From Candidatus Methanoplasma sp. (GTDB lineage: Archaea; Thermoplasmatota; Thermoplasmata; Methanomassiliicoccales; Methanomethylophilaceae): a stretch of DNA of 64,000 nucleotides. The number at the start of each line of letters is the position of its first letter. Positions within the stretch are counted from its first letter, which is position 1. Positions 23,100-58,321 of the stretch are shown here, piece after piece. The notes under the pieces were generated by a model. The model was not told where the DNA came from. It saw only the letters and a program-made list of their open reading frames with translations, and did no database searches. Made by a program: the position numbers and the translations under genes. The stretch covers positions 62,001 to 126,000 of the forward strand of contig JAIRPP010000013.1 of NCBI GenBank assembly GCA_031256955.1, given 5' to 3'.

Positions 23100-24407
23100 T
23101 CACGCGTCGTCCATCGAGAGCCCTCTCAGGCGGACCTCGTACCCGTCGAGGAGGCTCCCGAGAGCCTCCGCCTTCGCCGCCAGCGCGCGCATGTCGAGCC
23201 TGTCCCGGCTCTTCTTTATCTCAATCACGTCCGCCGTCCCGTCGAACCCGTTGAGGACGATCGCATCGATCTCCACGCTCCCGTCCCTGGACCAGTACCC
23301 CCCGATCTCGGTGTACGTCTCCTCCTCGGCGATCCTCTGCCTGAAATAATCCTCCAGCGCCCTCCCCATGTACTCGTCCAGCCCCTCCCGCACGGCCCTG
23401 GCCAGCAGGTCCAGCCTGCCGGATTCGACGTAGTCCGAGTTTGGCAGGACGAACCTGAAGTAGAACCGCAGGTACATGTCGGATATGCGCCATCTCGCGT
23501 TGCGCCCGCCCCGCTCCGAGAAGACGGGGCGGCTCTGCCTTATCAGGGAGTGCTCCGCCTCCAGCTTCCTGAGGTACGCCCCCGAGTCCACTCCGAGGGC
23601 GGCACTGATCTCCGATCTGCGGTTCCTGCCGCCCGCTATGAGCTGCAGGATGGAGAAGTACGTCCTATAGTCCCTCCCGAACTCGGACACCAGCAGGTCC
23701 CTGCCGTCCCTAAGGAACACGGAATCCGCCGATATCGCCCTCTCGACCATGTCTTCCGCCGTGCGGCACCCTGAATCCATCAGGGCCCTCACGTACTCGG
23801 GGACCCCGCCCGTGAGCATGTACAGCGCGACCGCGTCCTCGGGGGACCCGCCCCCGCCGTGGTCCGCCAGGATCTCCTTCAGGGTCCCGATGGCGAAGGG
23901 GCGAACCTCGATCTTGGAGGTGGCCCGCCCGAACAGGGGCTCCCCCGCGCCCTCGAACAGCTTCGTCATCATGGAATGGACGGAGCCGCTGACGATCAGG
24001 TTGATCCTGGAGGAATCGCGGTAGAGGTCCCATATCTTCTGGATCTCGCCGTATATGGCGGGGTTGACGTGCGCCAGGTCTTGGAACTCGTCGATCATGA
24101 CCGTGATCGGGTCCGACCTGGAGGAGATCATCAGGGCCTTGAGCAGGTCTCTGAACCTGGTCGCGCTCCCGGCGATCTCTATGCCCGCCTCCATGGCGGC
24201 CTTCTGCATCTTCTCGCACAGGAGGGGCTCCGCCACCCTGGACACGAAGAGGTAGACGGACCTGCGCCCCTCGGCGGACCTGACCATCAGCGCGGTCTTC
24301 CCGACCCGGCGCCTCCCCAGCAGAACGGTGAACGCGCTCGACCGCTCCGACCGCTCCCTGATCCGCTCCAGCGCCTCGAGCTCCTCTTCCCTCGCGTAGA
24401 ACCTCAT
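23100..24407 (-). CDS. Archaeal AAA ATPase with C-terminal DUF234 domain
   Basis: A 435-residue STAND/AAA-type ATPase of the large archaeal ATPase family. It has an FYAREEELEALERI opening, Walker A LLGRRRVGKTAL, Walker B VMIDEFQDL and the arginine-rich segment LFGRATSKIEVRPF. A winged-helix region (SEISAALGVDSGAYLRKLEAEHSLI) follows, then a C-terminal DUF234 nuclease-like fold (EIGGYWSRDGSVEIDAIVLNG...VIEIKKSRD), which keeps the E-D-EIKK pattern. The start at ATG 24405-24407 precedes the family motif directly. Such genes are accessory and mobile in archaea, and their biological role is unknown. Remnants and another relative flank it. Confidence 0.85.
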   Translation of the reverse strand: MRFYAREEELEALERIRERSERSSAFTVLLGRRRVGKTALMVRSAEGRRSVYLFVSRVAEPLLCEKMQKAAMEAGIEIAGSATRFRDLLKALMISSRSDPITVMIDEFQDLAHVNPAIYGEIQKIWDLYRDSSRINLIVSGSVHSMMTKLFEGAGEPLFGRATSKIEVRPFAIGTLKEILADHGGGGSPEDAVALYMLTGGVPEYVRALMDSGCRTAEDMVERAISADSVFLRDGRDLLVSEFGRDYRTYFSILQLIAGGRNRRSEISAALGVDSGAYLRKLEAEHSLIRQSRPVFSERGGRNARWRISDMYLRFYFRFVLPNSDYVESGRLDLLARAVREGLDEYMGRALEDYFRQRIAEEETYTEIGGYWSRDGSVEIDAIVLNGFDGTADVIEIKKSRDRLDMRALAAKAEALGSLLDGYEVRLRGLSMDDA

Positions 24408-26513: not shown

Positions 26514-26590
26514 TGGTGGACGAGGCGAGATTCGAACTCGCGGCCTCTGCCTTGCGAAGGCAGCGATCTACCGGGCTGATCTACTCGCCC
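26514..26590 (-). tRNA. tRNA-Ala (anticodon CGC)
   Basis: A 77-nt cloverleaf with an encoded CCA end. The acceptor is GGGCGAG/CTCGTCC with the diagnostic G3:U70 wobble of alanine tRNAs. The anticodon stem-loop is CTGCC-TTCGCAA-GGCAG with CGC in the loop, and the T-arm contains GTTCGAATC. It has no intron. It lies antisense to the end of the truncated ADP-ribosylglycohydrolase frame and may have served as an integration border. Confidence 0.95.
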
Positions 26591-38111: not shown

Positions 38112-38420
38112 TGCGTCGAGTCATGATAGTACCCCCCCTTCTGTTTCAGGCGGCATTCGACTATGCGCCCTACCCGCCGGTCAGGGGCACGTCACCCCGG
38201 CTGTATGGGTTTGCTCCGATGAGGTGTCGCCGTTTCACCATATCCTCGGGAACGTCACTGTCCGCAGATCATCCTGTCTACCGAGGCTGTGTCGTTTCTG
38301 GGCCCTTGCCAAGGCTCTCGCCCTGCCGGATTTCCCGGCTCATCTCGCCCTGTGGAGGAGGGAAGTTCCTCAGCCGGACCTGAGTCCTACCGTCGGCCGC
38401 CCTTCATCTCTCGACGGCGC
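38112..38420 (-). ncRNA. rnpB: RNase P RNA (archaeal type A)
   Basis: The catalytic RNA that matures tRNA 5' ends. The minus strand reads through conserved blocks: GAGGAACTTCCCTCC (CR-I), ACAGGGCGAGAT, AGAAACGACACAGC, GGTGAAACGGCGACACC and GGGTAGGGCGCATAGTCGAATG, ending ACAGAAGGGGGGTACTA. The ends pair as P1 (CGTCGAG at the 5' end with CTCGACG at 38114-38120). A TATA-like TTAATATC lies at about 38435-38444, some 25 bp upstream. Length is about 309 nt. Exact ends are estimated from P1. Confidence 0.9.
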
Positions 38421-52432: not shown

Positions 52433-53545
52433 ATGAAGAAGACCCTGGTCCTCGTCGTAGACAGAGACGACGATTTCGGCATCAAAGGCGGCGTCGACAC
52501 CCCCGTCATAGGGGTGGAGCAGTGCTCCGTGGCGGCGATGCGCCTTGGGATAGCCGATCCCGAGGATTCCGACGTGAACGCGCTCTACGCGGCCATAAAC
52601 ATATACCGCGAGATAATCGCGGAGGCGGGAGGGGACGTGGAGGTCGCCCTCATATGCGGCAACGAGAAGGTGGGCTACAGGTCGGACACTGCCATAGTGG
52701 ACGAGCTGGAGGCCGTATTGGAGGAAGTGGGGCCCGACCGCATAATCCTAGTGGGCGACGGGGCGGAGGACGAGTACGTGTACCCCATAATCTCGTCCCG
52801 CATAAAGATCGATTCGGTCAGGAAGGTCTACGTAAAGCAGGCGCCGGGGATAGAGGGCACAGTATACATCATATCCCGCATATTGGAGGACCCGGCCAAG
52901 AGGAAGCGCTTCCTGGCGCCGCTGGGGTGGATCATAGCCCTCGTGTCGCTGGTGTACATCGTCCCCGCCGCGGTGTCCGGCTCCAGCGTGTTCAGCGTCA
53001 CGGGCCCCCTCATCGCCTTCCTGATAGGGGCCATCTTCCTCCTGTACGCGTACAGCGTGCCAGACTGGCTGTCGAAATGGAGGGAGAAGTGGGTCAGGAG
53101 GATACGGCACGGGAGCGTGACCGTCACATTCTTCATGATATCCTCCCTGTTCATAGTGTTAGGGATGATCATAGGGTACCTCTCCCTGGGCGAGGTGTAC
53201 TCCGGGTCCGTTTTCCAGGGGGCGGCGTGGTTCATGTCCAACGCCATGTGGCCGTTCATATTCGCCGTCCTCGTCTACGAGGTCGGCGGGCTGGCGGACG
53301 CGTACCTGTCCACCCGCACGGTCAAGCTGAAGTACGTGGTGCTGAGCGTCATCGTGGTGGCCATGGGGCTGGTGCTCACGGGCATGCTGGACGTGCTGCT
53401 GGGCTATTACGGCATAGGCGCATCCAACACGCTCCTGATGACGGCGGAGATCATAGCCGGGATCAGCCTCGCGCTCGCCATAGCCATAGTGCAGAGGCGC
53501 ACCGGCAGGTCGGGCGCCGCCGCGGCGGAGGCGTCGGAGGGATGA
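52433..53545 (+). CDS. DUF373 family membrane protein
   Basis: A 370-residue archaeal DUF373 protein. The soluble N-terminal domain (residues 1-about 150) reads TLVLVVDRDDDFGIKGGVDTPVIG and IILVGDGAEDEYVYPIISSRIKI. Seven or so transmembrane helices (LGWIIALVSLVYIVPAAV onward) follow. Function is unknown, but the family is archaeal-specific. The stop overlaps mptE's start by 4 bp. The 210-bp gap before it shows no gene. Confidence 0.9.
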   Translation: MKKTLVLVVDRDDDFGIKGGVDTPVIGVEQCSVAAMRLGIADPEDSDVNALYAAINIYREIIAEAGGDVEVALICGNEKVGYRSDTAIVDELEAVLEEVGPDRIILVGDGAEDEYVYPIISSRIKIDSVRKVYVKQAPGIEGTVYIISRILEDPAKRKRFLAPLGWIIALVSLVYIVPAAVSGSSVFSVTGPLIAFLIGAIFLLYAYSVPDWLSKWREKWVRRIRHGSVTVTFFMISSLFIVLGMIIGYLSLGEVYSGSVFQGAAWFMSNAMWPFIFAVLVYEVGGLADAYLSTRTVKLKYVVLSVIVVAMGLVLTGMLDVLLGYYGIGASNTLLMTAEIIAGISLALAIAIVQRRTGRSGAAAAEASEG

Positions 53546-54243
53546 GGTTCTCGGAGTGGGAGCCCGTCTACGAGGCGATACTGGCGGACATGGGGTACGA
53601 CGGGGATTGCGACGAGAGGTCCGCGAGGGTCGCCAAGGCCGCGCTCCAGCGCCTGGACCTGGCGGACGACGACATCTTAAGGGACGTCATAGGGGCGGAG
53701 GCCACCGTGCTCGGGAACGCCGCGCGCCTGGCGGGCGACCTGTCCTCCATGGGGGCCGTCGGGGCCGTGCTGTGCTCCGGGTCCGCCGCGGGGGCGGCCA
53801 TGGCCGCCGGATGCATGCCCGACGCGGTCGTGACGGACCTCGACGGGGACATAGGCCCGCAGATCGAGGCCAGCGCCGCGGGGGCCGTGACCCTCATCCA
53901 CGCCCACGGGGACAACGCCGAGCTCATCCTGAGGCACGCGCCGGAGTTCAGGGGCCCCGTGATCCTCACGGTGCAGTCCAAGCCGAGCGGCATAGCCTGC
54001 AACTACGGGGGCTTCACCGACGGGGACCGCGCAGTGTGCGTCGCCCGCCACTTCGGGGCCCGGAGGATACGCCTGCTGGGGTTCGACTTCTCGGAGCCGT
54101 CTCCCAAGGGCGGGTCGGACCCCGCGGAGAAGATGAGGAAGCTGGAGTGGGCCCGGAGGATAATCTTCGGGGGCGGGGGCCTGGACATAGAGGCGCCGGA
54201 GGGCGTGCGCCCCCCGGAAGGGTTCGCATGGCCCGGCGTCTGA
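53542..54243 (+). CDS. mptE: 6-hydroxymethyl-7,8-dihydropterin pyrophosphokinase MptE
   Basis: A 233-residue archaeal DUF115 enzyme adding pyrophosphate to 6-hydroxymethyldihydropterin on the path to tetrahydromethanopterin, a methanogen C1 carrier. Motifs are MPDAVVTDLDGDIGPQIEAS, VTLIHAHGDNAELI and ILTVQSKPSGIACNYGGFTDGDRAV, then ARRIRLLGFDFSEPS. It is coupled to the DUF373 gene. A palindromic element directly follows the stop. Confidence 0.92.
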   Translation: MRFSEWEPVYEAILADMGYDGDCDERSARVAKAALQRLDLADDDILRDVIGAEATVLGNAARLAGDLSSMGAVGAVLCSGSAAGAAMAAGCMPDAVVTDLDGDIGPQIEASAAGAVTLIHAHGDNAELILRHAPEFRGPVILTVQSKPSGIACNYGGFTDGDRAVCVARHFGARRIRLLGFDFSEPSPKGGSDPAEKMRKLEWARRIIFGGGGLDIEAPEGVRPPEGFAWPGV

Positions 54244-54246
54244 AAG

Positions 54247-54374
54247 ATTTTCTCGACACTGTCGAGAAAATTCATCTGAGACGCCTGGGTAACCCGGTTC
54301 AGAAGCCCCGTGTGGCTTTCATCCGTCGCCTCTCTCTCAGGCAGGATCGATTTTCTCGACAGTGTCGAGAAAAT
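54247..54374. repeat. Paired 25-bp palindromes around a foldable 78-bp spacer
   Basis: Two perfect palindromes, arms ATTTTCTCGACA/TGTCGAGAAAAT, centred on a single base (C in 54247-54271, G in 54350-54374), enclose 78 bp. The spacer can fold: CTGAG (54276 onward) pairs with CTCAG near 54340, enclosing hairpins CTGGGTAACCCGG and AAGCC/GGCTT. It begins 3 bp after the mptE stop and ends about 50 bp before a TATA box (GATATTTAATAC). It could be a terminator pair, a small RNA gene or a mobile repeat. Confidence 0.7.
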
Positions 54375-54526
54375 CTTCCGCGGCCGTCCGGGCGGCGCCT
54401 CGCGGGCCGCTCCGCCCGCCCCGGCAGATATTTAATACGGAGACGCCGTTACGCCCAGACATAGAGAGGCCGCGGGCCCCGCGCCGCGTCGGGGCCCCGC
54501 GCGATCGAACCAAGGGAGACATCGGT

Positions 54527-56065
54527 TTGGAGCTAACTTACATCGTCCTGCTGGCGCTGGCCATAGTCTACGTCCCCATATACGTCTGGGTCAGGAAGGG
54601 GCCCAGGAGGGCTGGGCGGTACGGGCTGAGGAAGTACGGCCCGACCATAATGGTCGAGACCGAGTGGGGCAAGAGGCTCATGGACCGCCTCGCCGGGCAC
54701 ACGCGCTTCTGGAGGGCGTTCGGCGCCGTCTCCATCGCGCTCATGTTCCTTATGATGGCGCTCATAGTCTACATCCTGGCGATGGGCGCCCTGAACCTCC
54801 CGTCGGCGTTCTCCTCCCCGGGGATGGGGCTGGAATACACCCTCGCGATACCGGGCCTCAACCCCCTCCTCCCGATATGGTACGGGCTCATCGGGCTCAT
54901 CGCCGCGATGGTGATCCACGAGCTGGCCCACGGGTTCCAGTCCAGGGCGAACGGGATCGGGGTGGAGTCCACCGGGGTGCTGTACTGCGTGGTTCCCCTG
55001 GGGGCGTTCGTCAACCCGGACGAGAAGGACGTGGAGAAGGCCAGCAGGAGGGCCAAGCTGGACCTGTACGCCGCGGGAGTGTCCATAAACGTGATCTCCG
55101 CCGCGGTCGTGTTCCTGCTGTTCGCGGTGCTGATGCTCGGGGGCATATCCTCCCCCTACGGCGACAACGCGGCCGTGTACCAGGTGACCGGGGATTCGCC
55201 CGCGTCCGACGCGGGCATACCCACCGGCGCCATAATCCTGGAGGTCGACGGGGAGAGGTACGCGTACTCGTCGGACCTGGGCAAGAGCTACTCCTGGAGC
55301 CCGGGCGACATGGTCTCGGTGAAGTACCTGCTGGAGGACGGGGAGCACGAGGCGGAGATGCGCTGGGGCCTGTACATAGAGCGGGTCACGTCGGACCCCG
55401 CGGGGCAGGCGGGCGTGGAGAGGGGCTCGTTCCTGATATCCGTGACCGACAAGGCGTCCGGCGTCAAGACGCAGATCTACGGGTACCCCGAGTTCATATC
55501 GTACATGGGCTCCACCAGGCCGGGCATGACGGTCGCGCTGGAGCTCATGGACAGGGGCGGCGCCGTCTCCGAGAGGGACGTCACGCTGGGCTCCAAGGGG
55601 GACATAGGCTTCCTGGGGATCGCGACCACCACCTCGGGGATGAACTTCAGGACCCCGGCGGAGATCCTGGACATCGCCAGGAACCCGCTGCACGGGGCGG
55701 ACACCCCGAGAGAGGCGGCGACGTCCATGCTCGGGTACATGTCGGGGCCGTTCAACGGCTTCTCGCCCATGCCGGAGAAGGTCCACTGGTGGTACGACGC
55801 CCCCATGGGGGACGCGTTCTGGATCCTGCTGGCCGCGCTGTACTGGATATTCTGGCTGAACCTCCTGCTGGGGATCTCCAACGCCCTGCCGGCGTTCCCG
55901 TTCGACGGCGGCTTCGCGTTCCTGCTGGGCCTGGACTCGGCGCTGGAGAGGATCGGGGTGAGGGACCCCGAGAGGCGGGAGAGGATCTCCGGCAGGATAT
56001 CGGGGATCGTGTCGTCGGCGGTGCTGGTGGTGTTCCTGCTGATAACGCTCTCGGTGGCCCTGTGA
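54527..56065 (+). CDS. Site-2 protease family membrane metalloprotease with PDZ region
   Basis: A 512-residue intramembrane zinc protease (M50). Catalytic motifs are AMVIHELAHGFQ (HExxH) and SNALPAFPFDGGFAFLLG (NxxPxxxxDGG). Between them lies a PDZ-like region (ITGDSPASDAGIPTGAIILEVDGE-type segment and a second SDPAGQAGVERGSFLISV). About seven membrane helices are visible. It probably cleaves membrane-anchored regulators or signal peptides. No ATG fits; TTG 54527 is preferred because AAGGGAGA precedes it and TATA-like GATATTTAATAC (about 54426-54437) lies upstream. Confidence 0.88.
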   Translation: MELTYIVLLALAIVYVPIYVWVRKGPRRAGRYGLRKYGPTIMVETEWGKRLMDRLAGHTRFWRAFGAVSIALMFLMMALIVYILAMGALNLPSAFSSPGMGLEYTLAIPGLNPLLPIWYGLIGLIAAMVIHELAHGFQSRANGIGVESTGVLYCVVPLGAFVNPDEKDVEKASRRAKLDLYAAGVSINVISAAVVFLLFAVLMLGGISSPYGDNAAVYQVTGDSPASDAGIPTGAIILEVDGERYAYSSDLGKSYSWSPGDMVSVKYLLEDGEHEAEMRWGLYIERVTSDPAGQAGVERGSFLISVTDKASGVKTQIYGYPEFISYMGSTRPGMTVALELMDRGGAVSERDVTLGSKGDIGFLGIATTTSGMNFRTPAEILDIARNPLHGADTPREAATSMLGYMSGPFNGFSPMPEKVHWWYDAPMGDAFWILLAALYWIFWLNLLLGISNALPAFPFDGGFAFLLGLDSALERIGVRDPERRERISGRISGIVSSAVLVVFLLITLSVAL

Positions 56066-58011: not shown

Positions 58012-58321
58012 GGCGTTAGGCCACAGAGGTGGGCCTCGTCTCCCGGCGCGGGTGGACCGCATCGATCCTCGACCCCGTATCCCCGCAAACGTCAGTGGCT
58101 CAGGGTGAGGCTGCTCCCGTCAGGACCTGACCCGGTTCCCCTGATTATTCCGCGCGATGCGACCCTCCGGCCGCCCGCAACGGCTACGCCGACTCTGCAG
58201 GACGAGATCTCATGGTCTCTCTGCGGGCCCGAGCGTTCGACTCGGCCGCCCTCTGCTGTCACCCCCGCTGTTGACGGTTGCGGGTACAGGGCACGCCAAG
58301 CTCCCCGGTCAAGCCTAACGC
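58012..58321 (-). ncRNA. Signal recognition particle 7S RNA
   Basis: The minus strand encodes an archaeal SRP RNA of about 310 nt. The domain IV core GGGAACCGGGTCAGGTCCTGACGGGAGCAGCC-type segment (58091-58130) is present. The 5' end GCGTTAGGC (58313-58321) pairs with the 3' end GCCTAACGC (58013-58021), forming helix 1. TATA-like ATTAAATATCC lies at about 58339-58349, 25 bp upstream. Its protein partner SRP54 is encoded at 36126. Confidence 0.9.

Follow-up and report, generated by a model that had tools for sequence, protein, structure and literature searches.

In genes for YhcG/DUF1016 nucleases, the part that encodes the DUF1016_N domain contains a conserved palindrome whose two arms change together. 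Two palindromes in the window, the 64,000-nt stretch of Candidatus Methanoplasma sp. DNA analysed here, very probably belong to the same class, and it is likely that they both belong to it and serve as sites of some kind. The pair is best read as orphan sites recognized by a nuclease of the YhcG family, for which we infer binding and cleavage. Nucleases of the YhcG/DUF1016 family are widespread, are listed in PADLOC as phage-defence candidates and have no known substrate; the covarying in-gene palindrome together with matching extragenic copies yields a testable guess at their target. Palindromes in the gene or close to it are mentioned in none of the open-access DUF1016 papers found, and the open-access literature searched contained no description of DUF1016/YhcG palindromes or of the palindrome sequences.

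Twin palindromes between mptE and an M50 peptidase gene

The palindromes lie in an enlarged intergenic region with the following features.

53542–54243, plus strand: MptE-like gene (PF01973); its stop codon lies 3 bp before palindrome 1
54244–54526, no strand: enlarged mptE–M50 intergenic region, about 285 bp, including the element
54244–54276, no strand: left arm of a 33-nt inverted repeat, 94% complementary to 54345–54377
54247–54271, no strand: palindrome 1, 25 bp, perfect, with 12-bp arms and centre C at 54259; ATTTTCTCGACACTGTCGAGAAAAT
54272–54348, no strand: spacer between the palindromes, folding at chance level and without an Rfam match
54345–54377, no strand: right arm of the 33-nt inverted repeat, pairing with 54244–54276
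54349–54375, no strand: palindrome 2, 27 bp, perfect, with centre G at 54362
54527–56065, plus strand: M50 peptidase with a PDZ domain; probable TTG start at 54527, judged from the sequence and from relatives

An earlier note on this DNA had described two perfect 25-bp palindromes with identical arms and a central C or G, the whole element forming an inverted repeat; both points were confirmed. The core of palindrome 2 (54350–54374, ATTTTCTCGACAGTGTCGAGAAAAT) has the same arms as palindrome 1, and the two centres are 103 bp apart. With up to three mismatches, the palindrome pattern occurred twice in the window and in none of 100 shuffles. A single palindrome of such size is unremarkable (of 20 Markov-simulated 64-kb sequences, two reached an equal score); the non-random feature is the presence of two palindromes with identical arms, rather than one palindrome alone.

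The spacer, by contrast with its earlier description as foldable, is indistinguishable from shuffled sequence: the 78-nt segment gave z-scores of −0.17 and −0.06 on the two strands, with 78 and 82 of 200 shuffles folding as well. The strong folding of the whole element (z −8.4/−8.7) arises because its arms are palindromic. These data bear on the suggestion that the element is a small RNA gene or MITE-like, a reading that its inverted-repeat architecture favours. A search of the element and the window against Rfam gave no match at the element, the spacer lacks structure and the locus is not conserved, which speaks against a small RNA gene. A MITE is expected in multiple copies with target-site duplication; the exact pair is found at a single locus in the roughly 1.55 Mb of the window genome, and 292 further genomes from the phylum contained no copy with up to two mismatches. 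We therefore consider either option highly improbable. The exact palindrome was also absent from the viral contigs searched. The low copy number led us to reject a high-copy dispersed repeat, and membership of the REP/RAYT system was rejected because the palindrome foot carries no GTAG or CGTC tag and the locus is single. RNA genes identified in the window, all on the minus strand, include the archaeal RNase P RNA (38118–38412), the SRP RNA (58014–58320) and a tRNA-Ala (26514–26590).

Next, the locus was compared with relatives of this GC-rich (65% GC) genome, the close ones including termite-gut Methanomassiliicoccaceae metagenome-assembled genomes (MAGs). The gene order DUF373–mptE–M50 is common to most of them. 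In 18 of the 19 measurable relatives with the same order the mptE–M50 gap is 29–110 bp, and it is 490 bp in the remaining one; none of the 18 short gaps contains palindromes. Set against about 285 bp here, the short gaps indicate that some 230 bp, including the palindromes, are extra in the window lineage. For the exact sequence and site, the element is thus single-copy and unconserved in close relatives, two of the three points (the third being the lack of a transcript) that together the earlier note would have taken as a refutation; the palindrome class, as described below, is nonetheless widespread.

Covarying palindromes inside YhcG/DUF1016 genes

Weak matches to the window palindromes in relatives of the same genus fell within YhcG/DUF1016 genes: ATTGTCGCGACACTGTCGCGACAAT in G016 (contig 90 of this relative matches record WQTN01000090), TTGGCGACACTGTCGCCAA in G007 and ATTCTCTCAACACTGTCGAGAGAAT in G004. 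In all three, the palindrome codes for the residues directly preceding a conserved (L)SW motif. A scan of bacterial and archaeal genomes yielded 80 DUF1016 loci from many phyla, of which 76 could be read at the motif. In most of these 76 genes, a 25–27-bp palindrome occupies the same codons, directly before the conserved Trp codon, and in many a second palindrome is centred exactly 108 bp upstream, such pairing being usual. The design is an odd-length palindrome of about 25 bp, ATT...CASTG...AAT. The peptides that it encodes differ (IVATLSRQL, IVSPLATQL, ILPPLAAKL, IVTSLMSQL and IRVSPIREL). In the DUF1016 genes of G006 (L072) and G017 (L077), the palindrome-coded segment before the Trp codon has internal expansions.

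Measured against redraws of synonymous codons, the main copy had 9.46 of 12 positions paired against 5.31 expected (Fisher 6e-84) and the upstream copy 8.42 against 4.68 (Fisher 1e-64), P values that overstate independence because the genes are related and kinship was left uncorrected. Relatedness does not affect in the same way the control offsets, the sliding controls or the diversity of pair types. At eight other offsets in the same genes, pairing was at the null level. The arms also covary: 94.0% of cells were paired, compared with 74.7% after shuffling, with a score of 0.500 versus 0.162, and versions slid along the gene scored at most 0.164. Changes on both sides were observed at 10 of the 12 arm pairs. 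Last, copies within a gene resembled each other more closely than copies in different genes (0.853 versus 0.695; the maximum of 20,000 permutations was 0.759).

Mutation alone, through template switching or gene conversion between arms or copies, could in principle build such palindromes, and the window pair would then be a neutral relic. Arms that are perfect although their sequences differ, and the homogenization of copies within a gene, are what conversion would give. Against this, the same design occurs outside genes in E. coli and in relatives (see below), the palindrome persists at the same codons across phyla and the arms change in a compensatory manner at the 10 pairs; the last two observations imply selection as well, and we regard mutation alone as improbable. 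The in-gene palindromes share with Rickettsia palindromic elements the placement of palindromic DNA within coding sequences. Those elements are selfish inserts of 100–150 nt in many unrelated genes (PMC4316617), whereas here a 25-bp palindrome occupies one fixed place in one gene family.

Extragenic copies in the window genome and elsewhere

We then scored the window pair with a matrix built from 94 DUF1016-gene palindromes, none of them from the window. Across the 1.55 Mb of the window genome, the two window sites ranked joint first at 34.5 bits each, about the 75th percentile of the gene palindromes, and the next match reached 18.3 bits. The window score is attained by random perfect palindromes with p 3e-6; when the window arm was shuffled 300,000 times with its AT/GC content kept, it was never attained. 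Both sites have the ATT...CASTG...AAT design of the palindromes embedded in the family's genes, and in the frame used by those palindromes the sequence translates as I-F-S-T-L-S-R-K-F. Their spacing of 103 bp compares with 108 bp in genes and with about 73 bp and 82 bp in two other extragenic groups, in G051 and on C16 of the window genome itself. The exact palindrome sequence was absent from every DUF1016 gene searched. The pair is intergenic and its flanking reading frames are not DUF1016; because it lies outside any DUF1016 gene, we classed it as an extragenic copy and not as part of a gene. A decayed DUF1016 gene at this position was rejected: spacer and flanks bear no likeness to DUF1016, and the spacing of 103 bp cannot be divided by 3. 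By eye, the spacer also has no likeness to the coding spacer of DUF1016 genes.

The matrix result also bears on the idea that a local regulator of the M50-protease gene uses the pair as its operator, with no connection to DUF1016. Before that gene, a TATA-like stretch (54427–54437, found by eye) follows the end of palindrome 2 at a distance of about 50 bp, a position that would suit an operator; the pair is not conserved before the M50 gene in relatives, and a chance match to the DUF1016 matrix would be needed, so that this explanation is very unlikely. Of the three options raised by the earlier note, a paired protein-binding site comes nearest, since palindromes of this class are tied to the DNA-acting YhcG/DUF1016 proteins.

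The matrix runner-up in the window genome (18.3 bits) is ATTGTGCAGACGGCGTCTGCACAAT at G000:C16:68091, with an imperfect partner 82 bp away. The two form a second intergenic palindrome pair (C16:68009–68033 and 68091–68115; L280:8009 and 8091) with another core, GCAGACGGCGTCTGC; the pair looks like the palindromes that a DUF1016 gene of G043 has within it and downstream of it. A further pair of matrix matches, 109 bp apart at G000:C5:6341/6450, is intergenic and not palindromic, and was set aside as probably due to chance. A perfect 23-bp intergenic palindrome, GCGCAAAAACGCCGTTTTTGCGC, is found at G000:C5:160652–160674 (L236:14652).

Extragenic copies accompany DUF1016 genes in some other genomes. 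In G043, at two such genes, the extragenic palindrome matches the internal one of the same gene. In G051, a DUF1016 gene is flanked on both sides by CASTG-centred palindromes in tandem arrays that repeat about every 73 bp; these resemble, rather than match, the in-gene palindrome.

L033:1–140 and 1322–1566 (G051:C84): palindrome arrays of G051
L034:1–256 (G051:C103): palindrome array of G051

In a termite-gut Propionibacteriaceae MAG, an exact copy of the in-gene palindrome closely follows a stop codon in intergenic DNA, 15 kb away from the DUF1016 gene. Ten bacterial and archaeal genomes with typical DUF1016 genes had their copies of that design almost exclusively in-gene, indicating that extragenic copies are rare for the typical subfamily; half of the complete relative G006 (positions 1–800,000) contained no palindrome of this design. 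On a Dyadobacter plasmid (L330:15604), an orphan perfect 29-bp palindrome with a CACTG centre, CAATTGCGAATACACTGTATTCGCAATTG, lies upstream of a DUF1016 gene at a distance of 4.4 kb; the arms in that gene are different.

E. coli K-12 has three palindromes in yhcG and one perfect palindrome about 16 bp after the yhcG stop codon (L336:5828–7010), the latter matching an internal one; a further near-perfect copy lies directly after gltD. ATTCTGCAGACAGTGTCTGCAGAAT is, alongside the in-gene palindromes, a putative target of K-12 YhcG. Sampled E. coli alleles of the yhcG region differ by compensatory arm changes, and across strains the site after yhcG shows paired arm changes and flips of the centre within nearly invariant flanks. 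At least part of the K-12 yhcG region was matched by 5,048 of 5,426 E. coli genomes, and 946 of the 5,426 matched 80% or more of the gltD–palindrome–nanQ junction of strain U12A. The two junction genomes read directly, U12A and SFAD3, lack yhcG and retain one palindrome; palindrome-only sites thus exist in E. coli.

The positions of these copies could also suggest ordinary bidirectional terminators or mRNA-stabilizing hairpins between genes, with convergence accounting for the resemblance to DUF1016. Palindrome 1 begins just 3 bp past the mptE stop codon, the E. coli and Propionibacteriaceae copies likewise follow stop codons, and the whole element folds strongly. Such a role is at odds with the short, palindrome-free gaps in 18 of the 19 same-order relatives and with the absence of a U-tract after either palindrome. 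Nearly all extragenic copies examined are complementary up to the central base, which is useless to a hairpin loop, and so good a match to the DUF1016 matrix is rare among random perfect palindromes, as given above. We judge this explanation unlikely, and favour recognition sites.

A possible self-addressed nuclease system

The DUF1016 protein combines PF17761 and PF06250 domains and matches PADLOC candidate PDC-S02. Its nuclease domain was already known (PMC1189080, PMC1913061), and the predicted structure (pLDDT 71.7, pTM 0.44) places at the C terminus a PD-(D/E)XK domain like those of NucS/EndoMS and Card1/Can2. In the model, the palindrome-coded segments appear to fall in the helical N-terminal domain. 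No solved structure matching DUF1016 by sequence was found. The N-terminal part resembled the ParB helix–turn–helix (HTH) weakly in Foldseek (E about 0.01); matches of the PF17762 profile to DUF1016_N had E values of 8e-4 to 0.07, all below the Pfam cut-off, and an hhalign comparison with one ParB was collinear and not significant (E 0.05, probability 1%).

The sole DUF1016 gene found in the window genome (G000:C1, about 23,222–23,992; L078:1225–1995) keeps its nuclease domain and only positions 2–69 of the 137 of DUF1016_N; the missing second half is the palindrome-coding part. No cognate nuclease gene with the same in-gene palindrome was found in the window genome; at 88% completeness, the assembly may be missing an intact one. 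Because the only gene found lacks the palindrome-bearing N-terminal part, we favour the reading of the window pair as a probable remnant, two sites left behind with no intact cognate gene.

We suggest a mechanism of binding and scarring whose chances, judged from sequence, fall a little short of even. A DUF1016 protein dimer would bind the palindrome through its N-terminal domain, given the weak ParB-type HTH evidence, and would bring the PD-(D/E)XK domain to the site. In-gene copies could act in cis, in autoregulation or self-recognition, and extragenic copies may be targets or scars that mark where a DUF1016 gene or cassette has gone missing or could enter; in this archaeon, a site pair would have ended up in the gap between mptE and M50. 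More broadly, we tentatively propose that YhcG/DUF1016 proteins are self-addressed nucleases: the gene would encode, within its own DNA-binding domain, the palindrome that its protein recognizes. Site and specificity would evolve together, with paired arm changes giving new specificities, and extragenic copies, including the window pair, would mark, as sites or scars, the gain and loss of genes by this element. A DNA site and the protein segment that it encodes may here be evolving jointly.

The palindrome system would work like REP/RAYT or ParB–parS and is best placed under neither definition. One B. subtilis parS is located within the parB (spo0J) gene, and parS is nearly invariant. The likeness to ParB–parS would be that a ParB-type HTH binds a palindrome, DUF1016_N being weakly ParB-HTH-like; the differences are that here both arms vary in step between genes and that a nuclease domain replaces the CTPase domain. 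As in REP/BIME–RAYT systems, short extragenic palindromes are tied to a cognate family of DNA-processing enzymes. REPs carry a GTAG or CGTC tag at one end and reach high copy number (PMC3733652); the palindromes here are untagged and low in copy, the enzyme is PD-(D/E)XK and not HUH, and the site lies in the enzyme's own coding sequence. E. coli K-12 has all parts of the system. On an Aeromonas caviae plasmid (L331:944–6984), a two-palindrome DUF1016 gene lies between type I restriction methyltransferase and specificity genes.
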